Source: Isoetes taiwanensis
Lineage: Eukaryota > Streptophyta > Lycopodiopsida > Isoetales > Isoetaceae
DNA: 64,000 nt
Assembly: GCA_021234155.1 (NCBI GenBank)
Contig: JAJEKV010000035.1
Location: 11,594,407 to 11,658,406 of the forward strand
Direction: 5' to 3'
Part shown: positions 21,697 through 60,519 of the stretch, piece by piece
Numbering within the stretch: the first letter of the stretch is position 1
Layout: the number at the start of each line of letters is the position of its first letter
The notes under the pieces: model-generated
What the model saw: the letters and a program-made list of their open reading frames with translations, nothing else
The model's database searches: none
What the model was told of the DNA's origin: nothing
Program-made: the position numbers and the translations under genes

Positions 21697-21773
21697 CACC
21701 CAAATTTCTCATCAAATCCCCGAGTTGCTCCTCATCAAGTTAATATTCCTTGTCTCTGAACTTCTGAAGCAAA

Positions 21774-22280
21774 ATGGCAAGCTTCAAATATGGAATCTGC
21801 TTCATTTTCCTAGCTCTGTTTGCATTAGAATGCCAGGCCAAATTTACAAATCTTGAGTTCTATTTTATGGGAGGAGCTCCAAACACTTCGAATGAGATTG
21901 TTGCTGGGCCAAACAACGATGTGAGCAAGGCTCAATTTGGCACAATTTTTGTGTTTGATGATAAAATCACAGACGGCCCCAACAATCAGACCTCCAAAAT
22001 TTTGGGCAGAGCACAAGGCATTGTGGCAGTGACAGATGTTGCCACTACCAGCTCTACTTACTATTTCACTGTTCTGTATGATCATAATGGTCTCAAAGGG
22101 CAACTGATTTTGTTGGGCAGAGATACAATTGGAACTGGCGGAGTTAGTGAATTGGCTATTGCTGGAGGAACTGGCGATTTCAGATTTGCTTCAGGATATG
22201 CCAATTTCACATATACCACATTCTTACAGCTCTCCCTCACTGCTTATGTCTCTGCTACCATCTACCAGCCTATGCATTGA
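21774..22280 (+). CDS. Dirigent-like protein 1
   Basis: 168 codons, no intron. Dirigent proteins are secreted beta-barrel proteins that steer stereoselective coupling of phenoxy radicals in lignan and lignin-related metabolism; the specific substrate cannot be read from sequence. Residues 1-22 form a signal peptide ending in CQA. Family signatures follow: NLEFYFMGG (27-34), FGTIFVFDDKIT (55-66), ILGRAQGIVAVTD (76-88), FTVLYDHNGLKGQLILLGRD (98-117) and ELAIAGGTGDFRFASGYANF (126-145). Potential N-glycosylation sites are N37, N71 and N144. The length matches the small single-domain members of the family. The ATG is the first after the TATA box at 21689 and starts the signal peptide. It is one of three tandem copies and differs from copy 2 at about five residues. 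Intact and probably expressed. Confidence 0.93.
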   Translation: MASFKYGICFIFLALFALECQAKFTNLEFYFMGGAPNTSNEIVAGPNNDVSKAQFGTIFVFDDKITDGPNNQTSKILGRAQGIVAVTDVATTSSTYYFTVLYDHNGLKGQLILLGRDTIGTGGVSELAIAGGTGDFRFASGYANFTYTTFLQLSLTAYVSATIYQPMH

Positions 22281-22494
22281 GCTTTTCATTGATTTGTTTT
22301 AAATAATATATTTGTTTTAAATAATAGCTGGCACAAATTAAGCCAAATAAATGTGGCAATTGTAACCTTTCAATGAGATAATTCAAATTGCTGCTTGTTA
22401 GATTCAACCCAACTGTAATTCATCTGTTGATTCAGGTTTCCAGAATGGGAATTCCATATTGTGAGAGTAGCATAATTCATTGAGAGTCTATATT

Positions 22495-22665
22495 TTAGGC
22501 GTGGCAAACATTTTATATCGTTTCACTGTTCTATATGATCATGGTGGCCTCAAAGGTGAGCTTATTTTGCTGGGCACTGGCTGTGCAATTTCTTTTTTAC
22601 ATCTCATTTCTTGCACGCAGTCTCACTACTTATGTCATTGCAACTATTCACTGGCCTGTCTGAGC
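22495..22665 (+). pseudogene. Truncated dirigent copy
   Basis: Between intact genes 1 and 2 there is a fragment reading YRFTVLYDHGGLKGELILLG (about 22515-22575), followed shortly by SLTTYVIATIHWPV and a stop (about 22620-22664). These match residues near 96-115 and the C-terminal beta strand of the intact proteins, while the intervening IAGGTG region is deleted and the N-terminal half is absent. It is a relic of a fourth tandem duplicate. Confidence 0.8.
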
Positions 22666-23695
22666 TAGTTTACATTGGTTAACTTAACCAAGGACTCAAG
22701 TATAGTTGAACCACTTAACTTGTCCATAAACTTGTAACAGTTCTAAGAAATAAAATTTCCCCCATTGTTTTGTAAATTTATGCTGCTACATGCATTATAC
22801 TCTGTTCTTAATTCTTGAACTTTCATGCCATACATGTAATTATGCCAGGCTTCACCAGGAAGCAGAGATGATCATATAAATGATAAACACACAATAAGAA
22901 GAAAGGAGAGGAACTCTGTAATTTTCTGTATTGTAAAAGACGGTGGATTGTTTTAAAAAATCTCAATTTATGAGAGATATATGATTTTAGACATATTTGG
23001 ACTAGTTTGTCAGTTAAGGTGTATACAGGTGTAAATTACATTACTCTTGCATCAGATGGTACAATTTAAGTTTTAAGGAATTGTGTAGTACTTACTGGAA
23101 ATGTAATCATCCATGTTTAAAAATAGATGCGGGTGGAGCTTTTCCATTTACACCATCAGTAGATACAGGAAGAGATAATTAACCATATCTCTTCGAAGTT
23201 GGATAATCGATCGTAGTAATGTCATGACTTATCAAGAAGATCAGACCATAAAAATCAATCGAATAGGATATTAAACATTTTGATGTCCTGGTCCATGCAG
23301 CCAAGTGACATATCAAGGATAAATTAGACAAGAGGATGTAGGCCCACGTTTGGATAAAAAGTCTAAGTTACTTTGCATCTTTGTTGAAGTAAGTTATGCA
23401 AGCGACAAGAAAGTGATGCAGATTTCAAAATTCTAGATCATAAACACCACCGCCATAACCATGCCCCACATATGCATGTCATCTTCTTCCTCTGTCAAAC
23501 TTTCACACCAACAAACGAGTTTGCACACACAAGAAGATGCAGAAGAAGACAGCAAAATAAAAAACGGACCCATTCAACAGGAACGTGGATAAATCAACCA
23601 TAGCTTGACTTGAACCTTTCCAATGTCAGACATAACTTCATTTAAGCCTGAACATTTTGAACCATCGAATGCATGGGACCTGCAGATATAAACTC

Positions 23696-23703
23696 TATAT
23701 AAG
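23696..23703 (+). promoter_or_regulatory. TATA box of dirigent gene 2
   Basis: TATATAAG preceded by 'gatataaactc', 95 bp before the ATG at 23799. The block 'atataaactctatataag' is identical upstream of gene 3. Confidence 0.75.
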
Positions 23704-23798
23704 CATGTCTTGTAACTTATTTTTCATCAAATCGCAAAGCTTTCGCTCGCCGCTGCATATTCTAAGTATCTATTCCACTGTGTAATTTTGAAACAAAA

Positions 23799-24305
23799 AT
23801 GGCAAGCTTCAAATATGGAATCTGCTTCATTTTTCTAGCTGTATTTGCATTAGGATGCCAGGCTAAGTTCACAAACCTTGAGTTCTATTTTATGGGTGGA
23901 GCTCCAAACACTTCCAATGAGATAGTGGCTGGGCCAAACAACGATGTGAGCAAGGCTCAATTTGGTACAATTTTTGTGTTTGATGATAAAATCACAGACG
24001 GCCCTAACAATCAGACCTCCAACATTTTGGGCAGAGCACAGGGAATTGTGGCAGTGACAGATGTTGCCACTACCAGCTCTACTTACTATATCACTGTTCT
24101 GTATGATCATAATGGTCTCAAAGGGCAACTGATTTTGTTGGGCAGAGATACAATTGGAACTGGCGGAGTTAGTGAATTGGCTATTGCTGGAGGAACTGGC
24201 GATTTCAGATTTGCTTCAGGATATGCCAATTTCACATATACCACATTCTTACAGCTATCCTTGACTGCTTATGTTTCTGCAACTATTTACCAGCCTGTGC
24301 ATTGA
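23799..24305 (+). CDS. Dirigent-like protein 2
   Basis: 168 codons, intronless, nearly identical to copy 1. By eye the changes are L15V and E19G in the signal peptide, K75N, F98I and M167V. Signal peptide 1-22, dirigent motifs FDDKIT, GRAQG and AGGTGDFRFA are intact, and so are the three N-glycosylation sequons. The changes are few and conservative, so the copies are recent duplicates or kept similar by gene conversion or selection. Promoter sequence resembles that of gene 3 more than that of gene 1. Confidence 0.93.
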   Translation: MASFKYGICFIFLAVFALGCQAKFTNLEFYFMGGAPNTSNEIVAGPNNDVSKAQFGTIFVFDDKITDGPNNQTSNILGRAQGIVAVTDVATTSSTYYITVLYDHNGLKGQLILLGRDTIGTGGVSELAIAGGTGDFRFASGYANFTYTTFLQLSLTAYVSATIYQPVH

Positions 24306-24309
24306 GCCT

Positions 24310-25600
24310 TCCACGATCATTGAGCCTGTGCATTGTAACCTTCCACGTTCAATAATAAGCTTGATTTTGGAAAACTATAACTAATTATACCTGTTTTACT
24401 TGAAGAATCTGTGTGTGTTCTGTTTAGGAATGTTTATGTTATAAACTTTATAATACAAGTCTCTTCATTGCATCACACCTGCAATTTACCCAAGTATTGC
24501 AGAGCAGGGCAGAGATGCTTCTGGACCAGCAGATTTGTTCACCATAGGGGTACATTAATAATAGAAACTGCCGAACCTTGAGCACTATGCAAGGATAGCA
24601 TTATCCTTGGTGTTAGAGCTACCCATTTTTATTATTATAGTGTGATGTTGAATCTAAAGCAAAAAGGCAATTAAAGCTTACAACCATCTTACAAGCATAA
24701 AGAATATAGTACAGCTAAGATCAGCTGCTTGTTACAACCTGGACAACATCTCAGACAATAGAAAGTACTATGATTAAGGTCGATATGTCCTAGTAAGGAA
24801 TAAGGTCCTATGTTTTGTTTATGACATGAGATAATTAGTGACAGATCTTGAGAGGACTAGATACAGTAACTTGATTTTCATCTGTAGGTCAATCAATTCG
24901 ATAGCCAGACAGGTAAAAACATGATTAGTATATCGAGTAAGAGAATGAGAGAGGTAGCAGAACAAATTGAACCATTGATTCTGGGAATGAACCACTGATT
25001 CTGTAAATGCACTCAGATGGGCCAGATGGTCTCTTGGACTTGGGCATGCATGCACACCGAATTCAGAAATGAACTACTTAGAAACTGATTTTTTATGCAA
25101 AAGGTTAGAAATTCCTTGAAATATTTATTTCAAAGTTCTTCCCCAACAGCAAAACAACGTGCTTTGATCTTGATCCTTTTGTCCCTTGTAAGAATAAACT
25201 GGAAAATATGTCCCACATACTTCTGGTAAATATATCTTGGTGGAAGTTCTTACCCAACAAGTTGACAAATCTAGGACAAATTTGGGACCGTCAAAAAGAG
25301 GACGAAGACAAGTTGATCACTCTGACATGAAATAATTTCTCTTTCTATGCAAAGGGTATGAAAAGGTTGTTTCTGAACAGAAGACTAAAGATTAAGCATG
25401 TCCCACATACTTACTTGTCGTCTTCTTAAGTACCAAATATATGATCCTGGTCAAAAATCTTACGCCAACAAAGTCCACCAGAACAAATTCAAAACTTCGG
25501 ACCAAAAGAGCACAGGACTCACGCGGATGGATGAAACAGCCAATTTCAAATCGATACGCAACATGAGCTAATAACTTAATGCAGAGTTTGAAGAATTCAA
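24310..25600. other. Intergenic, no gene recognised
   Basis: Sequence between dirigent genes 2 and 3. A 'gacaagttgatcact' block near 25310 also occurs upstream of gene 1 near 21485, so the duplicated unit includes some 5' flank. No other gene is seen. Confidence 0.45.
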
Positions 25601-25620
25601 ACTACTGCAAATATAAACTC

Positions 25621-25628
25621 TATATAAG
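25621..25628 (+). promoter_or_regulatory. TATA box of dirigent gene 3
   Basis: TATATAAG in the block 'atataaactctatataag', 92 bp before the ATG at 25720. Confidence 0.75.
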
Positions 25629-25719
25629 GGCCCAAGCTCCTTTGTATTTCTCATCAAATCACCTAAGACCTTGCTATTCATCACCTCAACTATTCCTTTG
25701 AGCGAATCTCTGAAGCAAA

Positions 25720-26226
25720 ATGGCGAGCTTCAAATATGGCATCTGTTTCGTTTTCCTAGCTATGTTAGCATTAGGATGCCAGGCCAAGTTTACACACCTT
25801 GAATTTTATTTCATGGGTGGAGCGCCCAATACCTCGAATGAGATTGTAGCAGGGCCAAACAACGATGTGAGCAAGGCTCAGTTTGGCACAATTTTTGTGT
25901 TTGATGATAAGATCACAGATGGCCCCAACAATCAGACTTCTAAAATATTGGGAAGAGCACAGGGGATCGTGGCAGTGACAGATGTGGCGACTACAAGTTC
26001 AACTTACTATTTCACAGTTTTGTATGAACATAAGGGTCTGAAAGGCCAGCTTATTTTGCTGGGCAGAGATACAATTGGAACTGGTGGCGTTAGTGAACTG
26101 GCTATTGCCGGTGGAACTGGTTCTTTCCGATTTGCTACCGGCTACGCCAATTTCACATATACCACATTCTTACAGCTCTCTCTCACTGCTCATATCTCTG
26201 CTACTATTTACCAGCCTATCCACTGA
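25720..26226 (+). CDS. Dirigent-like protein 3
   Basis: 168 codons, intronless. Same architecture as copies 1 and 2: signal peptide (MASFKYGICFVFLAMLALG...), FYFMGG, FGTIFVFDDKIT, ILGRAQGIVAVTD, ELAIAGGTG and a C-terminal beta strand. It is the most diverged of the three. Differences from copy 1 include N26H, D103E and N105K (YEHKG for YDHNG), SFRFAT for DFRFAS and AHIS for AYVS. All glycosylation sequons are kept. The substitutions cluster in loops, not in the core motifs, consistent with a functional protein that may differ in binding specificity. Confidence 0.92.
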   Translation: MASFKYGICFVFLAMLALGCQAKFTHLEFYFMGGAPNTSNEIVAGPNNDVSKAQFGTIFVFDDKITDGPNNQTSKILGRAQGIVAVTDVATTSSTYYFTVLYEHKGLKGQLILLGRDTIGTGGVSELAIAGGTGSFRFATGYANFTYTTFLQLSLTAHISATIYQPIH

Positions 26227-27540: not shown

Positions 27541-28090
27541 GTCAACTTAGAATTTTTGTAGCCTATTGGGGCCTTGGAAAACTAAAATACACTGTTGAAT
27601 ACAATATTTTAGAATATAGAAGCGATGGAATATATAATTGGCAATAAAGAAAGACAAATAAGAAGTAGTGAAGGCACTATTAAATACAATATTTTAGAAC
27701 ATAGAAGCAATGAAATATGAGGGCGGCAATAAACAAAGACAATTAAGTTGATAGCTTTGCTTACGAAGAACTAAAGACGAACTACCATTTTCACTGCAAG
27801 TCATCCGTAATCTTTTTGACAATAATGGCAAAATAGCTTACATAAGTCAAACTATTTATAGAGGCTTATATAACAAAGGGACTGCTTCCTTTTGTCAATA
27901 AAACTAGAATTAACATATGCATTGAGAACATAAATACATGTGATGCATTCGGTTATGGAACATTGCTTCAAACAAATCAAGAACAAGAATAGCTGCAATT
28001 GCGTTTATTCGTTGCTGAATGTATACTGTAATGAGACAAGCAAACCATTGAAACATGCTCTTCTAACCATTAGCTTCAACCAGAGCACTG
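27541..28090. other. No gene recognised
   Basis: Contains an imperfect direct repeat of ~80 bp ('caatattttagaa...tagaagc' near 27600 and 27690). No gene. Confidence 0.4.
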
Positions 28091-28094
28091 CCTG

Positions 28095-28756
28095 ATGCTT
28101 GCCAGTTCTGATCCTGAGCTTTTGCAACAATATCTTAATGGTCGTTTTTCTCAAAAGATATGGGACGCAGTTACTTTGGCCCAAGTGAAAACTGGTCATT
28201 ATCATGCACACATAAATCCCACTTTGGCACCAGGGCCCCAAGCTTATTTGCTTGCTTCATTGTCCAGGAACAAGCTTGTAGCTATTGCATCAATTCGCAC
28301 GGGGTCCCACAGGCTACGGATTGAGACAGGTAGATGGGAGCGGCCGCAATTGCCGCGAGAAGCGAGACTATGTGCCTGTTGCCAGTTACAGGCTATTGAA
28401 GATGAAAGCCATACTCTTCTGAGTTGCCTTGCTTTTGAGATAGTCCGGAATCATTTTTCGACCTTAGCATTCCATTCCACGCTTCCACAACTTCTCAGCG
28501 CACCATCTGTGCATGACTTGGCATTATACATACTTGAGATTCTAGATAAACGTCGCAATTCGGAGCCCCTCAGTAGTCATTATCTAAGCTTGTCTAGTAT
28601 CATCATTACTGCAAAGGTTTTTCCCTTGAAAACCTTTCGACGCAGGGGTTTTTTAATCCTAGTAGTAATATTGTACTAGCCCATTGTATGGGTCCCATGA
28701 CCTATTGGTCTCAGTGGACGTTAAAAAAACTATTCTATTCTATTCTATTCTTTCGT
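28095..28756 (+). mobile_element. LINE 3' fragment
   Basis: A 194-codon frame (28095-28679) encodes the C-terminal part of a non-LTR retrotransposon ORF2. It contains KLVAIASIRTGSHRLRIETGRW followed by a CxxC...HxxxxC cluster (CACCQLQAIEDESHTLLSC), the C-terminal zinc knuckle-like region of plant LINEs. Reverse transcriptase and endonuclease are missing. The 3' UTR contains 'aaaggtttttcccttgaaaa' and 'ggtctcagtggacgtta', then a (CTATT)n tail to about 28756. The same protein and 3' UTR are seen at 31980-32470. A 5'-truncated insertion. Confidence 0.85.
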
Positions 28757-49226: not shown

Positions 49227-49234
49227 GAACTTAT

Positions 49235-49650
49235 CAGGGATAGGTTCTATACGTACAAAATTAAAATTCCTGACGTATAAAGTCAAAAAATACGTATTTT
49301 TTAATAAAATACGTATTTAACGATATAAAACCTCTCCCGTAGGAAAAAAAAAAAAAATTTCGCGTCTGACGCCAAAGATTCGAAAAGCGTCTGTGAAAAA
49401 ACCAGCGTCTGAATATCGACTTTTTGCGTCGCAAAAGTACAGACCTGACTTTTCGACGCCGAAAAACTTGATTCAGCGCCAGACGCGAAGTTTTTTCACG
49501 ACGCGGCTTTAAGCAGCTTTCGGCGTCACGCGAAACCGGGGCGATGTTCGACGCCTGCGATTTTTCACGCGTTCACAGACGCTGAAAAAGTTTTCAGCGT
49601 CTGTGACGCTGAATCAAGTTTTCGGCGTCGCGAAATTTTTTTATATTTCT
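49235..49650. repeat. hAT left subterminal region, GCGTC-rich
   Basis: After a ~120-bp AT-rich end with repeated 'atacgtat' motifs, about a dozen GCGTC or GACGC pentamers occur within about 49360-49630, several paired as short palindromes such as 'agcgtctgtgacgct'. Subterminal arrays of short motifs are transposase-binding sites in hAT elements; that role here is inferred. Confidence 0.7.
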
Positions 49651-50880
49651 TGGTAGCGGATTCAGTTTTTATACCGCCAAAAGGTAATTTGCTGCGCCCA
49701 ACCTTGCAATTTGCCACCCAAAACCTTTTTTTTTTTGTTTTTCTTAGTTTTTAGGTTTTTTTTGTTGTTTTTTGATAGGTAGGCCAGGTTAGGTCCGCAG
49801 TTAGGCCCCCGCCTGTTGCCCCCCTGTGTAAGGGGCGTAACGATGGTGAGTGCCTTGTTCTGTGGGCTGAGCTTGGCCTATTTTAGAAAAAAAAAATAAT
49901 AATAACAATTTAAGCAAATAATAATTCAAGAGTAAAGTAAAAAAAAAGAAAACCAAAGAAGAAAAGAAATTGGTTGCCTTCCCTTAAACGACAACTGAGA
50001 GGGCTTTTTTAGGGTCGCGTGTTGCTAAGAGCATAGGCATGCCCCTTGCCTGGTATTGCCGCATTTATTTGCGCCATGCCGAGGGTGGGTGGCACTGCTG
50101 AAGCTTAAGGCAACTAGGGTCATCCTTTATTAGGAGTATAACCCTCGCCTGACGCCGTTGTTGGCCTTGGTCACGCGGTGTCGAAAGGTGTGCGTTGTAC
50201 TTTTATTAAGGGTTAGAAGAATGTTTTATTAATTCACACCCTAGTTCCTGATGGTGTTGTTGATGAAAGTCCGACACTAATATAGGAACTGGCGTATGTT
50301 TTGATAAGCATTCGATTGGTCTCGTCTTTTGAAAAAAAAGCATGACACGGGGACAAGTGCAATGCATTTAAAACTTGCTAGCCTTGCATTTTGGCGATGG
50401 GCTGGGCTATAGATCATAAATCGTGTTTTGGTCCTTTTATTTGTTACCCTATAATTGGCCTTGCACATACATACTCATGTTAGGGTCTTAGTGTAGGAAT
50501 AGGAAGCGTAAAATTAGCGTTTTGTTTTGGTTAGAGTGAGTTGATTTACCCTCATGTGCTAAGCACTAAATTCAAAGTTTTATCTTTGCTTGACTTGTAG
50601 GTGTTCTTTGTTGTCGGTTGTGTATTATCGCCTTGATCGCATTTTGCTAGTCGCTAGACAATCCTTTAAAACAAGCGATATGACTTCAAGAGAGAGCGGA
50701 AGTTAACTTGCAACCAAATGTGGCATTAGTGTCTCGGATAGAGCCAAAGCGTCTCAAACCACAGACTCTGAGCTGCAACTTTGAGTCATCTTCGCAAAGA
50801 TTTGCCCGGCGTAGAAAAAAGAAGTAGACCACAACAAGCATGGTCTACTTTGAGACCAGATTTTATGAACTGGTTGTGTA
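49651..50880. other. hAT interior, no gene recognised
   Basis: T-rich and G-rich tracts, no known protein. It may be 5' non-coding sequence of the cargo gene that starts near 50840. Confidence 0.4.
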
Positions 50881-50887
50881 ATCGGCT

Positions 50888-51232
50888 ATGCAATGCCTCA
50901 CTCAAGATTTGGAATTGATTACCGGCGCCGAGGAAGGATGGCTAGACTACCATGCAGGGCTGGTAAAAGATGCCGAGAGGGCTTTTAAGCTTCGAATGAT
51001 GGAGCTAGAGCCTGCAAAGAGTGAGCAAGAGAGGTATACATGGATAGTGGGTAATATCAGCCGCACTACCGGCAATATGATCCGCGAAGTTGCAAATTTG
51101 AGTAGTCATCGCTTGAGGCTAGAGCTGAAAGAAAAAGCCAAACACATGGAATGCGGCATGGACCAACAGAAAATTGAAGAAAGAAGCCCATCAACCCCCA
51201 TCTTGTTAAGAAAGTGTTGGCACAAACCATAA
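50888..51232 (+). CDS. Cargo ORF upstream of the kinase-like domain
   Basis: 114 codons starting MQCLTQDLELITGAEEGWLDYHAG, rich in charged residues and predicted helical (RAFKLRMMELEPAKSEQERYTW, HRLRLELKEKAKHMECGMDQQK). I recognise no family. It is on the same strand and ~80 bp before the frame that leads into the kinase P-loop at 51344, so it may be the N-terminal region of the same gene. An upstream in-frame stop at 50880 follows a possible earlier start (MVYFETRFYELVV). Confidence 0.35.
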   Translation: MQCLTQDLELITGAEEGWLDYHAGLVKDAERAFKLRMMELEPAKSEQERYTWIVGNISRTTGNMIREVANLSSHRLRLELKEKAKHMECGMDQQKIEERSPSTPILLRKCWHKP

Positions 51233-51310
51233 AAGCTAAACGTCTGGTGAGGCAGGATAGGGGAGTGGGAAGCTCGTAGAAGAGCGGATGCTAAGACTAC
51301 TTGGTTTGCC

Positions 51311-52375
51311 ATGGTAGACTCATCACAAATAATAAGCAGGACAACAATTGGTTACGGTTCATATGGCGCGATGTACAAGTGCAATATTTTAGGGTCTAGT
51401 TTTATTAAGGATGAACCTTATTGTGTAAAACTTCAACATAATAATTTTCAGTCTAGTCTGAGAACCCAATAAGTTAGTGGAAGCTATCTTTGAAGAACAT
51501 GAGGGAGTCGGGGAATGCAAGTTAGGCATGGGTGTATCATCTGTTTGCATTGGTAGCACAACCGCCTAGAAAGACAAGGCTTAATTTTCCCATTTTGGAA
51601 TGGAGGTTAGTTGGCAACCTTCTTCACAAGTCATGGGTCCAATGCCTTTCTTGAGCTTGCATTTAAGAAGTTGGGAGCTGTCCCCGAGTTGAGACGGACT
51701 TGAGGCTGCTTGAGGAGCCTTGAGAAAGAAAAGAATTATTTGTTGCATCTAGGGTTGGGGACTTAGCAATGTCATTACATGGCGGACTCACAAAAGCTCC
51801 ATCAAGAAAGATATTTGCATATGGACTTGCATCCGGGCAATATATTGCTCCATTTTGATTATGGAAAGGAGAAGGGATGTATTAATCCTCAGTACGTATA
51901 CATTGGCATTTGTGATTGGGGTGAATCGGGTTGATCCACGAGGCGGTGGAGGTAAAAGCGATGGCATTACAAGGGTATGGATGGCGAAGGTAAGAAAAGA
52001 ATTGAGATGGAAAGGGCCAGGCATCCATATATGCATGATGATCTTTTTTTGGTAGTGGCTCGAAGGCGGTGCACGCAAGGGTTGACTTTGATTTACACGG
52101 GCAGCGTACATTGTCTACTACTTAGGCGACTTTGCTAGTAAGCACTCCTACATGGAGTCAATAGGAAACTTGGAGCAGCAAGGCAAGCATCGGAGAATGT
52201 GCGACTATTTGAAACATTGCGTTGAGTCGCCAATGAGGGACAAAACACGAAAATTTGATATGGCCCGACTACTTGACACAATCGGGGGCGATTTTCATTG
52301 CTCTCCAATTCCGTGCGAGGCCACAATTGGAATCAGTTGGATTCTTCAACTTGGCGAGGTGGCGGCGATGCATTA
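51311..52375 (+). pseudogene. Protein-kinase-like domain carried by hAT
   Basis: Kinase landmarks appear in order, in shifted frames. The glycine-rich loop TIGYGSYGAMYKC is at 51344-51382, with YCVKLQH (Lys strand) ~25 residues later. An alpha-C-like segment KLVEAIFEEHEGVGECKLGMG is at about 51470-51535. The catalytic loop is HMDLHPGNILL (51818-51850; Asp 51824-51826, Asn 51839-51841) and the metal-binding motif DWG replaces DFG (51914-51922), in ICDWGESG. The C-lobe segment YLKHCVESPMRD...FDMARLLDTIG is at about 52207-52290. At least two frameshifts and stops interrupt it, so it is a pseudogene unless spliced. HMD for HRD and DWG for DFG are atypical. Kinases are not part of the hAT machinery, so this is probably a captured host gene. 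Confidence 0.65.
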
Positions 52376-52379
52376 GACC

Positions 52380-53700
52380 AAGCTGGTCCTAGTCACGCCT
52401 AAGCGTGCATATTCACTTACATTCAAACATCCTTGTATTACATAATATTCCAACTAAATTCATTAAACACTTATCGATGCTATTTGAAAGATTATTGTCT
52501 ATGTGTGTTGTGTAGCTTAGTTTTCCTTTTTAGTGTGTTTTTGTGTTATTTATTCTATGCTTTTTATATGTCGCGACTATCGAACATTATAAAGACAAGA
52601 AGTCAAAACACACCTATACAAGTCGGTCCGGTGCACCTATAGAAGTCAGCGGTCCAAATTATGTCCCACGAGCGGGGCCGAAGAATTGAATCGACCCACG
52701 GAATGTGGGTGCGTCGTCGAGCAGCGGATCAGCATGGATTTTTGGGTTCCCTCTAATTTGAGGACCCCCTCTACTCGATCTCCTTGGCATGAAGGGTTGG
52801 AGAAACGAGCTTGAGATGTCATTTGCTTTCGGCAAATGGAGAGAGCGGCGGCACATGCAAGGGCGAATGAGTTTTCGCCGCAGCGAGTTAAGAAAGGTTG
52901 CGTCGGCGATGGATGAAGTTTCAAAGAGGGATAATTGCACCATCACGAGGGTGCATAATGTAGGCTGGCGGGCGGGGGCACGGCTATTGTCCAAGTGGAG
53001 CGGACTACGACGATGTAATCACAAATTTGGACAAGAATGAGTTTGAAAGTGAGTGGCCTAGTAGGCGGGGTAAGTATAAGGCTCACGAGTGCAAGAATCT
53101 TTGTGGTTCGAGCAAAAAGCGGTCGGCGTCATGTCCAAGTGAAGGGACATTTACCCCACAAATCCGAGTTTAGTAAGAGTTTTTTGGCGACAAAGTATAC
53201 TACGAGCTTGTGAAGGAAGTGCCCGTAAATTATGGGAGTAGGAAATGGAGGCAAGGAAGCGGTAGTGGCGGCCACGAAGAGGGTCAAGCTATTGGAAGAT
53301 AGCGAGAGTGGGCCACATGGTGAGCCCATCACCATTACATACCTTGTTCTTTGGCTATCCAACTTTTGAGGTGGCAGGGGGGGGCCGCGGTGGAGCCGTG
53401 AATGACCTTGTGGATATTCCTGCCCAACTAGAGAATGAGAGAAGTCGAACCTAACACTTTCTCGAAGAGAATATTCGCTTGAAGGACCCGTGCCGATGGG
53501 TATGACAAGATGGCGGCTGAATTAGAGGGCGCTAAACGGCAACTAGCGGCATTAAACGAGGGAGGCAACGGTCCTTAGAAAAACAACGAGCACTTGCGCA
53601 ATTTGACCAGATCGTTAGACTCGACCCTTTTAGGGTGACTTGAGAGGTCGATATCCTATCTCCCTCAGCGGTATTTGTATGAGAGTCGATTGGGAAGAGC
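52380..53700 (+). other. hAT cargo, unrecognised coding-like sequence
   Basis: GC content and amino-acid composition remain coding-like. 52789-53040 (83 codons, MKGWRNELEMSFAFGKW...) is basic and unrecognised. At about 53510-53570 a short coiled-coil-like segment MAAELEGAKRQLAALNEG is readable. Possibly the linker of one long captured gene between the kinase-like and RING-like parts. Confidence 0.3.
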
Positions 53701-53720
53701 TAAAGGTTGTTGATTACAGA

Positions 53721-53920
53721 CATTGCCAATTTTGTGGTGACAACCCCACGCGAGGGTGGGCTGGTACACTCTAGGGTGTGGGCATCGTATGCACATGCGA
53801 TGTGTTCTTGATTGGATGTTGCAAAGCCGCTTACGTCCAACCTTGCAAGGCGGATGGATTTTTCCCCGAGTTACAATATGCCATATTTAATATGCAAGGT
53901 CGCATGCCGGCGTTGCCACA
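53721..53920 (+). pseudogene. RING-H2-like zinc-binding motif in hAT cargo
   Basis: HCQFCGDNPTRGWAGTL is read from 53721, then after a 2-nt shift CGHRMHMRCVLDWMLQSRL (about 53777-53833). This fits C-x2-C-x(~14)-C-x-H-x2-H-x2-C, the first six ligands of a RING-H2 finger. A CRRC at 53905-53916 could supply the last pair. RING-H2 proteins are usually E3 ubiquitin ligases. The frame is broken, so this is a relic or a spliced or mis-sequenced gene. The assignment rests on cysteine/histidine spacing only. Confidence 0.4.
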
Positions 53921-54894
53921 TTTGACCGCTCGCGCGGGAGGGATGGGCGGATGCACACTTTTCAAACCTTTGCGAGATGGAATTGTGGAGGGTGGAGGAG
54001 CCGCGTGAAGGAGAGCGATGCCCGGACATTATTAACCAGTTCTTACCACCACCTCGAGGGCCTTGGGGTGATTATATTGATCCAAATGACCAATGAAAAT
54101 GAGATATTACATTTTTAGACATGCCAAATTTTGACTGTATCATTTTGTGAATGGCGGGTATAATGGCGTTATTTCAAACAAGGTGTAATGATGTTATCAA
54201 AGGATCGAGTAGTGCTCATAGTAAAAGCATCGAGACTTCCAAATCGCTCTTTAAGTTTTACGTTTGACGAGTAAAGGCATTGAGACTTCCCAATCTCTTT
54301 TATCTGGCTTAGTCTCTTTTGTTTGTCCTCTTTGCTCACCACGGCTCACCACTTTGCTGAGTCTCCTTCGTTTCCTGTTTATCGTATCTAATTTGCCCCC
54401 TAGGATGACATCGCTCACTCAGGTGGCGAATTAGATACGTTAAGCAGAAACTTCAAAAGGAGTAAGCCAAAGGCACCCTCTTGGATGGTCATGGTTGGAT
54501 GGTGAGTGAGTCAAAACATCTGCACACGCAACCCTCTTGAATGGTTGTCAGGTCACCAGGCCTTATATTCTCCATGGCAAACAATATAGACTTCTCGAAA
54601 TTCTTGTTACCTCCTTTAGAAGGAAGCGAGCTTTGCTCTCACTCTCTTTTAGTGTCTACGTGTCAATGTATCTTAGATACTTTGCTAGGTTATATTACAC
54701 AAAGGCAGCGCAAAATGGGGGTCGGAGCAGAAATCGTTCGTTCTAGAGGAGGTTACAAGGTTTTTGAGTACTCTATTTTTATTGTGGCCACGGAGGATAT
54801 AAGGCCTAGTGGTTGCTTGCGATTCTGTGGGTTCATTAGATGTTAGTGATTGAAGCAAGCTTTGACTCCTGAATTCAAGCATCGAGACTTCCCG

Positions 54895-54980
54895 TTTTTT
54901 TCTTTCCCCGGCTCTTTGGGCAATGTAGCTTAGTTTACATGCTAAGTTCCATTGTCCAAAGAGCCGGGGAAAGAAAGGGG
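54895..54980. repeat. Strong hairpin inside hAT module 1
   Basis: 'tctttccccggctctttggg' (54899-54918) pairs with 'ccaaagagccggggaaaga' (54957-54975), continuing inward through CAATG/CATTG and TTAGTTTACATGCTAA. A diverged copy is at about 55822-55892 with compensating changes (cctcctctttggg against caaagagggg). Confidence 0.8.
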
Positions 54981-55033
54981 GGACGCTCGATGCACGACCC
55001 AGTCTCGGGCGTCGGGTGAGGCGCACTCTAATT

Positions 55034-55384
55034 TCAAGCCAAAGTGGTGCACAGGCGTTGTCCATCTATATAGTGGGCATTAGGCACCAAATCATGGAAC
55101 ATCCTAACTCCTTCTATTGATGGAGAACCTTGAGCATCACTATGACTTGAAATTGGAGGACGCGTCACGTTAACTTTGGTACGCCAAATCGGCATTTGGA
55201 TGCCATCGGGACCTATAATTTGTACCTCCATTCCTTTGGGTGGCACATGCCATGCAAACCCATTTGGGTATTCAGCGCATGTGCCACCCAGAGGAATAAA
55301 TGCAATTATAGGTCGAATAACATTCAAAGCCCAATTTGGCATACCGAAGTGTCTACATAACATTTTGGGGGTTGCCGGCCGCAT
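55034..55384 (-). other. Repeated reading frame in hAT module
   Basis: A 116-codon minus-strand frame contains FGMPNWALNVIRPIIAF, PNGFAWHVPPKGMEVQIIGPDGIQMPIWR. The same peptide core recurs in the third module copy (56422-56880), where it follows a frame with LVPKSNNFGMPNWALNVIRPIIAF. Conservation of the protein reading across two copies is suggestive of former coding, but part of it overlaps a hairpin ('gggtggcacatg'/'catgtgccaccc'). I do not recognise the family. Confidence 0.3.
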
Positions 55385-57015
55385 TGAGTTGTTTGTGTTG
55401 TAGTTAAGTAAAGTAAGTATGTTAGTGATTTTTGAACATCCTAATTAGGGACAGATGCCAATTAGGATTAGTGGACTTCCTACTTTCGAGACTTCCAACT
55501 TCGCTCACCCCTCCTCTCTTTCTCGAGACTTCTCGAGACTTCCAACTTTGCTCTCCACGGCTTAGTCTCTTTTCGTTTTTGTTTGATGTATCTAATTTGC
55601 CCCTAGGATGACATCGCTCACTCGGTGGCGGGTTAGATCGTCAAGAGAAACTTCGAAAAGGAGTAAGCCAAGAGCGCAACAACCCTCTTGAATGGTTGTC
55701 GGGTCACGGGCTTTATATTCTCCATGGCAAACAATATAGACTTCTCCGAAATTCTTGTTACCTCCTTGAGGGTTAATTGGATGTTAGTGATTGATGAGTT
55801 CAAGCATCGAGACTTCCCAATCTTTCTTTCCCCTCCTCTTTGGGCAATGTAGCTTAGTTTACATGCTAAGTTCCATTGTTCAAAGAGGGGTGAAAGCAAG
55901 GTTTAGGAAGTCTCGATGCTTGTACTCAGTCTCTTTCATCCCGGCACGGCGTGATCCTCTTGAATGGTTGTCAACTCACCGGGCTTGATATTGTTAAGCT
56001 ACAAACAATATAGACTTCTCGAAATTCTTGTTACCTCCTCTACAAAGGCGGGCTTTGTTCGACTCTCTTGTGTAGTCTCTCTGTCAATGTAGCTTAGTCA
56101 CTTTGCTAGGTTATATTACACAAAGAGGCTCACAATGGGGGTCGGAGCAAAAATCGTTCGTTCTAGAGGTTGAACTTGCTATGGCGTCCGGAGGTGAGGC
56201 GCACTCTAATTTCAAGCCAAAGTGGTGCACGGGTGTTGTCCATCTATATAGCGGTTGTTAGACACCAAATCATGGAACATCCTAACTCCTCCTTTATTGA
56301 TGGAGAACCTTGAGCATCACTATGACTTCAAATTAGAGTCTGGCGTCCCCTTTGGCAAGGTGGTGGATTGTAGGTAACAAGGTTTTTGAGTACTCTATTT
56401 TTATTGTGGCGGCGGATGATATCAGCCTAGTGGTTGCTTGCGATTACGTGGTTGCCTTGCGCCGATGGCATGCCAAATGCGCCATTTGGATGCCATCACG
56501 GACCTATAATTTGTACCTCCATTCCTTTGGGTGGCACATGCCATGCAAACCCATTTGGGTATTGAGCATGTGCCACCCGAGGAATAGAATGCAATTATAG
56601 GTCGAATAACATTCAAAGCCCAATTTGGCATACCGAAGTTATTCGACTTGGGTACCAGAAGTACCTTGTGAACCTTCGATGGATCGGTTAAGGTAGGGCT
56701 GGTCGAGAACATTTTGGCCCCTTCCATGCGTGGATTACTTCTCATCGGCAAGATTAAAGCGCATGCGAAGAGGCAAGCAACAACGGAGGTCGAGGCGGGT
56801 CTGATCCAACGAAGGTTTTCGAGAACACTATCGGTTACATGAAAAAGAAACATAGAAAGAAACATAGAAAGAACTATCATACATTAACGAAACATTTGTG
56901 ACAAAAATTATAACCAAAAACTTCTTTTTTATTAATAGTGCGAGGGGCCGGTTACAATAGTATGAAAATCCTCAAGACCAATTACAACAGTGAAGATACT
57001 CATCACATCATTTTT

Positions 57016-59505
57016 CTAGGCGCCGCCTTCTTCATCGATTTCATCATTTGCGGTTCCATCCTCTTCTTCTTTGGGGACCTAGGTTCAACCTCCGATGACC
57101 CTTTCCTTTAGTGAAAGCGTCCTCGAGGCGTGTTTTTCCTAGCCCGTTCTCTGTTTGTCAAGGTAAAGCGCCAAAGGTGAGTCCGTTGGATCCGCGTAAG
57201 CCCGATCCGTCATCAAGCGCATTGCTCGAACACGGCCTTTTTACGTATCGGACTCCTCGGTATCCTCGCCGTCGGTGATCCGATGCGAGAATATGGCTTG
57301 GTCTATATCATCTTAGTCATCAGCGAAGTGGAGTGCGTTGAATGTCTTCATCAACATGGCTTGCGGCATTTATTGCAAGCATCTCGTCCTCAATGTCTTG
57401 AAGGCCCCTCTTCCACTTGAATCTGCATCCATGAAAGGAAATCGTAGCTTATCGATTGCGGATGTACCAGCTGTTGATTCAATAGCCGCCCGGTTTGAGA
57501 AGTTGTATACAAGTTTGTGCGCCTTCTTATGTAGCAAGCGATTGGGGTGACAACGTGTATGTACTTATAGGCACTCCAATTCCTCTCACTTGCACTATTG
57601 GAAGATACCAAAGAGAGGATAGTCATTGCAATTGCCTCGCAAGGTATCGATAAACTTGCCCATGGGCTTGCCACCATGCATATGATTCCATATTTGGTTC
57701 CTTCTTATGACTCTCCAGTGCGTCGTGAAGCTCTTCATCTGCCCACCTTCCACTCAGGTTCTGGTATTCAGTTAACTCGGCAATGAAAAGCTTGTAGTCC
57801 GAGCTGTTGGGATAGAACATTTTTGCAACCTTCTTCAACGAGCCCATCACTTCTTTATCGTATGCTGGTCCATATCGTGGTTGTGTGGGTCTAAGGCATC
57901 TTGCGGCGCCATGAAGATCATTGTATGACTTCTTCCATCGTTCATTGAAGTCTCACGAGTAGTCTTTGCTTGGCTTAGCATTGTCAAATGGCGCATTGGG
58001 ACCATCACGTTCTAGGAAGGATTGAATGGAGTGCCAACACCTCCAGACCTTTCCGATTAGCTTGCCTTGAAGAATCAAGGGTTTTGATGGCATGACAAAC
58101 AGGTTGCATGCACCTCACAACATTTTTTACACCTTTCCAAAATGTCTCCCGCCCAAGCATTTCTCGAAGGGCAGCAGCTTGCTGTCGGTGTTTGGCGGCA
58201 TTTTTCCCTTTCTGCCTTCTTTCCCAATCAAAAACTCGTATGATTAAAGGTTGAGATAATCCAATCCGCGACACTTCAGCACTCTTTCAAGGCGGATATA
58301 ATTGGAACCAAACCGAGTTTGCCGGGATTCATGAGTGCTAGGCTCTTCGGCGCAATGACTTGTAAATGGCATAAATTGCGGCTTCTTTGTGATGAATTTT
58401 ACAAGCCCGGCGGCGCTTTACGAATGGGATCTTTGAACCACGTGTCTTTGTGAGAACCAGGTCCTTCAAAGAATAGGTTCAGGCAATGGCATTGGCAACT
58501 AGTAGCATGCAACCACGGAAATTGGACTCCGATGAATTGACCCGCTAGCTTGCAATTAGACGCGTTATCCATTACAACTTGAAATATTCTCTTGGTCCAA
58601 AACTCTCTATCCGGCCTTTGTTTTCTGAAAAATCCAATCTCCGGTCACTTGGTGAGTTTTGGTTTCTCACGGTTTTCAAAAATACTTCACCCCCTGGATA
58701 CCACGATCATGAAATTAATAAGATGGTCCTTGTTTACATTGCTCCAACCATCGGTCACTAATGAAGTGGCGCTTCAGTCCTGACACAACTTCATCTCCAC
58801 CCTCTCAACCATTTTTCCATGTATTTCATCAACCATTTTATTGTTGGCATGCTTGTATGAAGGCGGTCTAAAAGCGGTCCTGCTTTGGCAACTTCTTGGA
58901 AGGCTTCTTTCATTGCTTTATGCTCGAATATGTGGAGACAGCCCGGCATATAAAATGCCTCTACAACCTTCGGTTGTGTCTTCTTCAATTGCTCGATGTT
59001 AAGCAATGATCAACCCTCTGTTGCTTAGTGCATCTTTCCACTATTTCAATTGTCTCTATCATTCTCTGTTCTCCCGTGCTTATACCTATTGACCCTAGTC
59101 CGCCCTCTCGATTGGTATCTTTGTCCCCAGCGTGGGTGGTATAGTTATCTTCGCCTGCGCTTGCGCCTCGCCCCGCTCTTGAGTATTAAGTAACTTCGTC
59201 TTTTTCTCATATTATTCTTAGTTTTGCGTATCCCATCCATCGAGACAATCTCGATGGCATCCTTTCGCAAGTCGGCAGATCACGGTACAAGTTGCGACAC
59301 CGGCGTCTCGTTCACGTAAGATGTGAGCTCGAATTCTTGTTGCGCGAACCATTTACCGATGTGTATCCACAAAACACACATTCCCACTCATTTCGCCAAA
59401 CTCTTTCACAAACTCCCATTACGGGCCTCTTTTCCGACCCGCAACTCCGATCACCGCGACCATGTGCCGCGAGTTGCGGTCCCGTGGCCACCCCCGCGCA
59501 CACGC
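57016..59505 (-). pseudogene. hAT transposase (BED, DUF659, dimerization domain)
   Basis: Minus strand. The BED zinc finger is near 59270-59400: EWECVFCGYTSVNG, then after a shift ATRIRAHILRERDAGVATCTV. The RNase-H-like core near 58470-58575 has VVMDNASNCKLAGQFIG with the second catalytic Asp, then FPWLHATSCQCHCLNLF. Next come WKGVKNVVRCMQPVCHAIKTLDS and a basic helix (58274-58005), then SLKKVAKMFYPNSSDY and WADEELHDALESHKKEP (57850-57623). The C-terminal hAT dimerization motif SSNSASERNWSAYKYIH is at about 57570-57630. The tail is acidic, EEEDGTANDEIDEEGGA, ending at TAG 57016-57018. Several frameshifts and stops make it non-functional as read. It is bounded by hAT ends and a target duplication, so it belongs to this element. 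Confidence 0.88.
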
Positions 59506-59979
59506 GATCCTCGCACCTCTAGAGGTAGATGCATGACCCACTGCTGCACCTCCGGTAGATGCATGACCGGTAGCCACCATTGCTTTCGGACCGGTGACAA
59601 TGTCTCTTAATCGACTCCTTGATTACACGAACTAAAGGAAGGCGTATATATGCAAAGGAGCAAGCTCACAATGCATATGTTACGTCGGCGTTCGTCTTGA
59701 AAGAATCAAGGGGGTTGAGACGGGACCCTATAGGATATTCTATGGAAGCGGATGCCAACCCAAAAGCTGGAAACCACTGGGGCCGGAGTAAACTCACGTT
59801 CCAAAGATCCAACGTCGAGCTCGTGACTCAAAAAACGACACCTCAAAGGCAAACCGTTTCCCAAGGAGTATTTTGACTCAACTTTGGCGGTCACGCTCGT
59901 TCGGTGAATTCTAGGGCTAATCACGTTTTTTCTATATATATACTATTAACGATTGCCACAAAACGAGGCCAAACAATTA

Positions 59980-60509
59980 GGCGCAAATATTTTTTTTGCT
60001 TAGTAAATCGGGCAAAAAACAGCTTAGAAAAAATTTACGATGCACGACGAAAGCAACTAAACCGCGTCTCGCGAAAAATATTTTCAAAAAAAAAAAATTG
60101 CGTCGCTTGAAGATTATTTTTTTGCGTAAGCATACCAACACGCTGTTCAAATTATTTCGCGTGACGTTCAAATAAAATATCATAGTTGTCTAAACCGCGT
60201 GACGCGAAAAATTATTATAGAGGTTATCTGTGGATAAATAAGTTGTTTTTCGCGTCTGCTGAAAAAATTGGTTTTAAAGATTTTGCGACGCTTTTTAATC
60301 TTCGCTTTTAAAGACGCTTCCAAAAAAATATTTTCAAAAAACAAAACGCTTTTGTTTTTTGTTGTTTTTAATTTGACGCCGAAAATTTTCTCGACGCCGA
60401 ATTGTTTTTCGCCCGATTTTTTATGTTTTATACGGCAAAATTTGTGTCAGATCATTCAATTCATCATTATTCCGATAAAAAGCGTCAAACAGTATTGAAC
60501 CTATCCCTG
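59980..60509. repeat. hAT right subterminal region, GCGTC-rich
   Basis: Many 'cgcgtc', 'gacgcc', 'gcgtga' motifs in AT-rich DNA, similar to the left end in composition but not a long perfect inverted repeat. The frames at 60007, 60268 and elsewhere are low-complexity and not genes. Confidence 0.65.
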
Positions 60510-60519
60510 GAACTTATGG

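Follow-up and report, generated by a model that had tools for sequence, protein, structure and literature searches.

Genes inside plant cut-and-paste transposons have mostly been regarded as accidental, fragmentary captures. VANDAL transposons belong to the Mutator-type superfamily of DNA transposons. They keep an accessory protein, the anti-silencing protein VANC, and their target sequences are often tandem repeats (PMC5735166). Pack-hATs have hAT ends around non-transposon coding sequence and are by definition non-autonomous elements that carry gene fragments (PMC8903248), and a hAT of the fungus Pseudocercospora fijiensis carries histone H3 (PMC6710886). The fungal element is described with a DUF659 hAT transposase, an 8-bp target duplication, a 20-bp terminal inverted repeat (TIR), and a full length of 9.5 to 9.9 kb, its host-type gene having been amplified to hundreds of copies (PMC6710886). 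Here we describe an element from the land plant Isoetes taiwanensis, located in a stretch of 64,000 nucleotides (assembly GCA_021234155.1, contig JAJEKV010000035.1, positions 11,594,407 to 11,658,406 of the forward strand) that we refer to as the window. Positions 49235 to 60509 of the window are a single hAT insertion of 11,275 bp, with a kinase gene, a gene for a protein with a RING-like finger and a coiled coil (gene 2), and a convergent transposase gene. We consider it probable that the window copy represents a three-gene hAT lineage in which the kinase gene and gene 2 serve as accessory genes rather than passengers, because their order is fixed, they recur in a subfamily at silent-site saturation, and the kinase shows signs of purifying selection.

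The three-gene element and its copies

The original prediction described an 11.3-kb hAT transposon with 18-bp ends, one mismatch, and an exact 8-bp target duplication, and this description held. The duplication GAACTTAT is identical at all eight positions on the left (49227 to 49234) and right (60510 to 60517). The left TIR, CAGGGATAGGTTCTATAC (49235 to 49252, plus strand), and the right TIR, CAGGGATAGGTTCAATAC when read inwards (60492 to 60509, minus strand), differ at one of 18 bp. This mismatch is a family trait of the element ends, since a T-type end is joined to an A-type end in 18/18 exact-end pairs (a plus end followed by a minus end within 15 kb, paired by hand on contigs C1 to C390). 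Across the genome searched (1,658,258,908 bases in 1110 contigs), ends with at most one mismatch numbered 1260 and 1271, as opposed to 5 and 3 for a reversed control pattern, which excludes a chance origin. Candidate counts in these genome searches are rough, and the best-matching places alone were scored. With the left 301 bp of the element, the best 40 of 1422 candidate places were scored; 39 lie outside the window, and all 39 matches begin at the first base of the query.

The transposase gene (57010 to 59630, minus strand, outer limits approximate) has a broken frame in the window copy. The transposase matches Pfam DUF659 (1.3e-28) and Dimer_Tnp_hAT (1.3e-9), with the corresponding stretches at about 58399 to 58644 and about 57390 to 57704, both on the minus strand. 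A zinc-finger-like CxxC stretch is present at about 59312 to 59518 on the same strand; its CxxC...H pattern was seen by eye, and Pfam gave no BED match up to E = 1. The window copy and other copies have short inverted repeats at their ends, of the CAGGG type typical of hATs.

About 7 kb of the element lies outside the transposase, as had been proposed, and resolves into a 5' region (1.4 kb), the kinase gene (1.7 kb), the RING-like gene (1.4 kb), and an array of hairpin-forming units of roughly 2.4 kb. The kinase gene (50680 to 52402, plus strand, limits set by alignment to copy C1010) is broken in the window copy, while C1010 has an open frame of 574 amino acids (aa), 564 counted from the first Met, and C1065 retains 432 aa open. 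On open-frame copies the earlier kinase-like and RING-like assignments are borne out by Pfam, with PK_Tyr_Ser-Thr at 5.2e-12 and Pkinase at 2.7e-11 for the kinase. Kinases of the window subfamily, hAT-1, have a GSGSYG glycine loop, a catalytic Lys in YCVK, an HxD motif in HMDLHPGN, and a DxG motif in CDWGE, with DWG in place of DFG; the catalytic motifs lie at about 51767 to 51934 on the plus strand. By its motifs the product is a eukaryotic protein kinase, with predicted activity. YCVK and CDWGE are constant in 8/8 kinase frames, as is HMDLHPGN, which was also used to pick the frames, so that its constancy is not independent. Solved structures gave weak kinase matches only, the best being B-Raf at E = 9.4e-4, and the viral contigs searched with six peptide patterns held no close relative. 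Gene 2 (52661 to 54096, plus strand) encodes a basic part, a coiled coil, and a RING-like finger (about 53720 to 53840, plus strand). Its frame is broken in the window copy and open over 434 aa in C1092 and 448 aa in C1075b. The zf-RING_2 match is 3.8e-6 in hAT-1, just above its cut-off, and 1.8e-5 in the diverged subfamily hAT-2, below the cut-off.

The cargo is conserved between copies, a point on which the prediction had asked for a check. For kinase DNA, the best 40 of 395 candidates were scored, one being the window itself, and the 39 other places match at 92 to 96% with a query coverage of 95% or more. The best 40 of 513 candidates for the RING region gave main matches of 87 to 94%, and the best 40 of 578 for the transposase 89 to 95%. 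We fetched 14 loci beyond the window, then seven diverged loci (one of just 2 kb), and then one further hAT-1 copy and a transposase piece. The window, the 14, C1049, C1031, C1075b, C1092, and C13 made up a comparison of 20 loci; C941, C1081, C908, and C1084 were fetched but stood outside it. Kinase, gene 2, and convergent transposase occur in the same order in 15 of these 20 loci, a non-random sample chosen by match to pieces of the window element, with a gene counted as present at a query-protein coverage of 60% or more, broken frames included. Both ends are present in 14 of the 20, and the 8-bp duplications are identical in 12 of those 14; the duplication of C23 agrees at 7/8 positions, and that of C1010 is unmatched, its right end having a mismatch. 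C1063a, C1063b, C23, and C1072 are deleted forms, and in C13 the transposase is absent from the stretch fetched. Window-subfamily copies with both ends and all three genes measure 9.5 to 10.7 kb (the window and the deleted C1028 excluded), and the extra length of the window copy is mainly its array.

Protein searches extended this picture to matches with identities down to 64% for the transposase, 62% for the kinase, and 55% for gene 2, some depressed by stops and errors. We scored 113 of 1988 transposase candidates, 77 of 1709 kinase candidates, and 117 of 1211 gene-2 candidates, after secondary pieces of one place had been dropped before pairing (6 of 83 kinase, 4 of 121 gene-2, and 3 of 116 transposase rows). 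In at least 31 of the 77 kinase places, gene 2 follows the kinase in the same orientation at a distance of 497 to 1531 bp, and in at least 24 of the 77 a convergent transposase lies within 12 kb of the kinase. At least 26 of the 117 gene-2 places have a convergent transposase. Among the matches listed, neither gene 2 nor the transposase stood in the wrong orientation to the kinase in any case (0/77 for each).

Divergence, exchange, and selection

The hAT-2 subfamily has the same kind of ends and the same gene layout as hAT-1. Its copies C1049 and C1031, of 9777 and 9131 bp, have left ends CAGGGATAGGTTCTGTAC and duplications identical at 8/8 positions; C13 and C908 were assigned to hAT-2 by sequence, as the fetched stretches showed no ends. 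The hAT-1 and hAT-2 kinases are 61 to 72% identical in amino acids, with a replacement divergence (Ka) of 0.21 to 0.30 and a silent divergence (Ks) of 2.4 to 3.1 or undefined. Gene 2 is 62 to 64% identical (Ka, 0.28 to 0.31) and saturated at silent sites. The transposase, by comparison, has a Ks of 0.56 to 0.73 against C1092 and 0.56 to 1.17 across all pairs. Since the cargo and transposase halves have diverged differently, their histories differ and modules were exchanged between the subfamilies. Among hAT-2-type copies, omega is 0.20 to 0.26 for the kinase, 0.235 for gene 2 (one pair), and 0.26 to 0.51 for the transposase.

Selection within hAT-1 could be examined for the kinase, whose 33 copies (13 + 20) fall into two haplogroups, A and B. 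We counted 31 of the 33 copies (14 A and 17 B), leaving out the mixed L039 and the partial C1028, and took as fixed a difference found in at least 80% of each haplogroup. The coding region has 3 replacement and 13 silent fixed differences, where a replacement share of 0.727 was expected (P = 1.1e-5; omega, about 0.09), and two of the three replacements fall in one codon. A 12-copy count gave 6 replacement and 16 silent differences, two of the six lying upstream of the ATG. The adjoining 5' noncoding stretch (element positions 650 to 1480, 12 copies) has 25 fixed differences in 830 bp, or 30 per kb (3%). Because omega is about 0.09 while the adjacent noncoding DNA differs by 3%, these counts indicate that the kinase has been kept by purifying selection within the element lineage. 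The first 700 bp of the element have 6 fixed A/B differences, and past element position 2513 there are about 2 to 4 per kb, which marks a recombination boundary inside the kinase gene. Neither the purifying selection on the kinase nor the recurrence of the kinase-RING pair in a second, diverged subfamily was part of the original prediction.

A third kinase lineage, L3, is a low-copy homologue (L067:1796-8096, L066, and L075, in C941, C1081, and C1058). It is the only candidate for a host gene matching the cargo, and may be a donor gene, a domesticated copy, or a second carrier. Open kinase frames of 604 aa in C941 and 619 aa in C1081 are 75 to 79% identical to hAT-1; the C1058 kinase has a stop. 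C941 and C1081 are 94.7% identical across an indel-free alignment of 1901 bp, and all three loci have about 4 kb of upstream DNA in common; one stretch of it gave 19 places, three of them strong. C941 and C1081 showed no hAT end at up to 4 mismatches in 18, only scattered three-mismatch matches to a 13-mer. About 240 bp downstream of the C941 kinase begins a Helitron Rep/Hel frame of 1417 aa (PIF1, 6.4e-49; Helitron_like_N, 1.8e-34). C1058 has the same junction (94%), which in C1081 is split; with two loci, a split third, and no unit ends found, the kinase is not established as plain Helitron cargo.

Broken frames, the array, and the subterminal regions

No long cargo frame is open in the window copy. 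Where copies differ from each other, they do so in short tracts of scrambled sequence located at CG and CHG sites. In the kinase (12 copies), substitutions amount to 16.9% at these sites, 1.0% at 7 to 9 bp from them, and 1.4% beyond; they fall with distance from 13.7 to 0.5% in gene 2 (12 copies) and from 13.4 to 0.9% in the transposase (14 copies). Within 3 bp of CG/CHG sites we counted 1216 transitions, 811 transversions, and 529 deletions. Plain deamination is insufficient to explain this, since C>T or G>A changes account for only 686 of the 2027 substitutions and so many deletions occur. Ordinary decay as the main cause of the frame breaks was rejected on the basis of the CG/CHG clustering, the one-third share of C>T or G>A, and the many indels. 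The published description of the assembly gives 1658.30 Mb in 204 scaffolds plus 909 contigs, built from Nanopore R9.4.1 reads with racon and pilon polishing (PMC8566536). Most of the frame breaks in the window copy are probably base-calling errors at CG/CHG sites of presumably methylated DNA. In an early Nanopore plant assembly, the broken frames of repeats may thus be base-calling artefacts that hide intact elements. At least 9 bp from CG/CHG sites, the raw difference within kinase haplogroups is 0.96%, a rate that reflects the multi-copy scrambled sites that remain. Sites differing in exactly one copy number only 7 in haplogroup A (8786 bases) and 17 in haplogroup B (10661 bases), which suggests recent amplification.

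The block at 54150 to 56650, between the convergent genes, had been read as a tripled module. It proved instead to be an array in two blocks, made of hairpin-forming units that vary in number with the copy, a unit of about 170 bp occurring one to four times. Three units, when folded, gave long hairpins (z of -12.4, -9.4, and -7.8), and Rfam had no match in the window at gathering score. One part of the array shows 92% identity between C1010 and C1075b and is less diverged than the adjoining genes, and this identity spans two subfamilies whose flanking genes are saturated.

The left subterminal region (49350 to 49645) is dense in GCGTC/GACGC motifs and, judging from this content, is probably a transposase-binding region. 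The right motif-rich region (59930 to 60491) has a middle that aligns poorly to other copies. Most copies read have a motif of GCGTC/CAGACGC type; a CGCGTACGCG type occurs in C23, at the left end of C1063b, and at the right end of C1072. These may be two motif versions or a base-calling artefact.

Elsewhere in the window, three tandem open frames at 21768 to 26226, which we take to be dirigent-like, differ by 7.3% at CG/CHG sites as against 4.6 to 5.9% elsewhere, without gaps and with a weak slope. A 201-aa frame at 28074 to 28679 resembles, by eye, the end of a LINE-type reverse transcriptase.

Interpretation and comparison with known systems

The transposase of a hAT moves the element. Here, the minus-strand transposase would cut and paste the element through its CAGGGATAGGTTC ends and motif-rich subterminal regions. 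The kinase and RING pair would act for the element, most likely through phosphorylation and ubiquitin tagging of host silencing factors or of the transposase, with counter-silencing or copy-number control as the outcome. A bolder version is that an ancient hAT lineage owns a selected, host-manipulating kinase-RING system, used for silencing escape or transposition licensing and swapped between transposase ends as a module; the L3 kinase beside a Helitron Rep/Hel frame would then mean that the module may move between transposon classes or has been domesticated. We hold this version only tentatively, at somewhat less than even chances.

Several observations weigh against accessory genes. The evidence comes from genome sequence, and none of the fetched loci has all three genes open at once. 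No exact-end pair measures 9 to 11 kb (0/18): 13 are 532 to 780 bp long, one is 1113 bp, and four are 2.4 to 5.3 kb, so that short derivatives dominate in this set and the element can do without the cargo in cis. The right 610 bp of the window copy match other copies over their full length at only 67 to 71%, because the motif-rich middle differs between copies. In C941, C1081, and C13 another residue stands in place of the first or the second glycine of the kinase loop. Of the RING-H2 ligands of gene 2, seven are evident and the eighth, the last Cys of the final pair, is not. The informative sites that were counted had also served to define the haplogroups. Single hAT-1 copy pairs give a higher omega, 0.35 for the kinase (C1010/C1065) and 0.35 to 0.39 for the transposase, probably owing to presumed base-calling errors, and true differences in gene 2 and the transposase inside hAT-1 were too few for a selection test. 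Part of the hAT-1/hAT-2 divergence may also stem from host paralogues before capture.

That last point leads to repeated capture, in which hAT subfamilies separately took paralogous host kinase-RING pairs and selection acted mostly on the host genes beforehand. The low-copy L3 kinase would fit such a history, lying outside recognisable hAT ends with open frames in C941 and C1081, and the hAT-1 kinase is closer to it (Ks, 0.83 to 0.97) than to hAT-2. However, haplogroups A and B have common ends, a common 5' region, and a common layout, yet an omega of about 0.09; hAT-2-type kinases among themselves give 0.20 to 0.26; and the L3 kinase, among the matches listed, is in no case paired with a gene-2 match. 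The same two genes would also have to be caught twice in the same order and orientation, and we regard repeated capture as unlikely. We give still less credence to genes caught once and carried without function. Such neutral passengers would account for the frames broken in many copies and for the cargo-less short derivatives among the exact-end pairs, but not for the silent excess at fixed kinase sites, the open frames in diverged copies, or the concentration of frame breaks at CG/CHG sites. That the cargo is nested junk, inserted later and separately into one hAT copy, is suggested by the repeat-rich block at 54150 to 56650 and has a negligible chance of being right: the original prediction was to fall if the cargo were unshared and made of insertions with their own duplications, and the cargo is instead colinear in independent insertions, which rules this out, with 8-bp duplications at the outer ends and no inner target duplication found.

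If the accessory-gene reading is true, a signalling-type accessory system can belong to a DNA transposon and be kept over long divergence, and the handling of host silencing by an element is opened to direct test. The proposed lineage with captured domains stands as a cargo-carrying hAT lineage; "captured" would call for a donor gene, and none was identified, and "undescribed" goes further than searches of an open-access library can. Among the papers that these searches listed, with subscription papers and repeat databases outside the search, we found no hAT with a kinase and RING pair, and a 2026 review of plant gene capture mentions neither "hAT" nor "kinase" in its main text (PMC13317346).

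The Isoetes element resembles VANDAL transposons in being a DNA transposon that keeps accessory proteins and in having arrays, but VANC is unrelated to the kinase or RING protein, for which an anti-silencing role is a proposal only. It shares hAT ends around non-transposon coding sequence with Pack-hATs and differs from them in having whole genes alongside a transposase gene, whereas Pack-TYPE elements have no transposase. With the P. fijiensis hAT it shares the transposase type, short TIRs, the length of the target duplication, a comparable full length, and an amplified host-type gene. The fungal element has one histone gene with a known donor, and its copies are described as inactivated by repeat-induced point mutation (PMC6710886), whereas the Isoetes element has two genes and selection on the kinase within the element lineage, and resides in a land plant. 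Gene-carrying hATs are already known, and the kinase and RING pair in a hAT appears to be a new variation on them.

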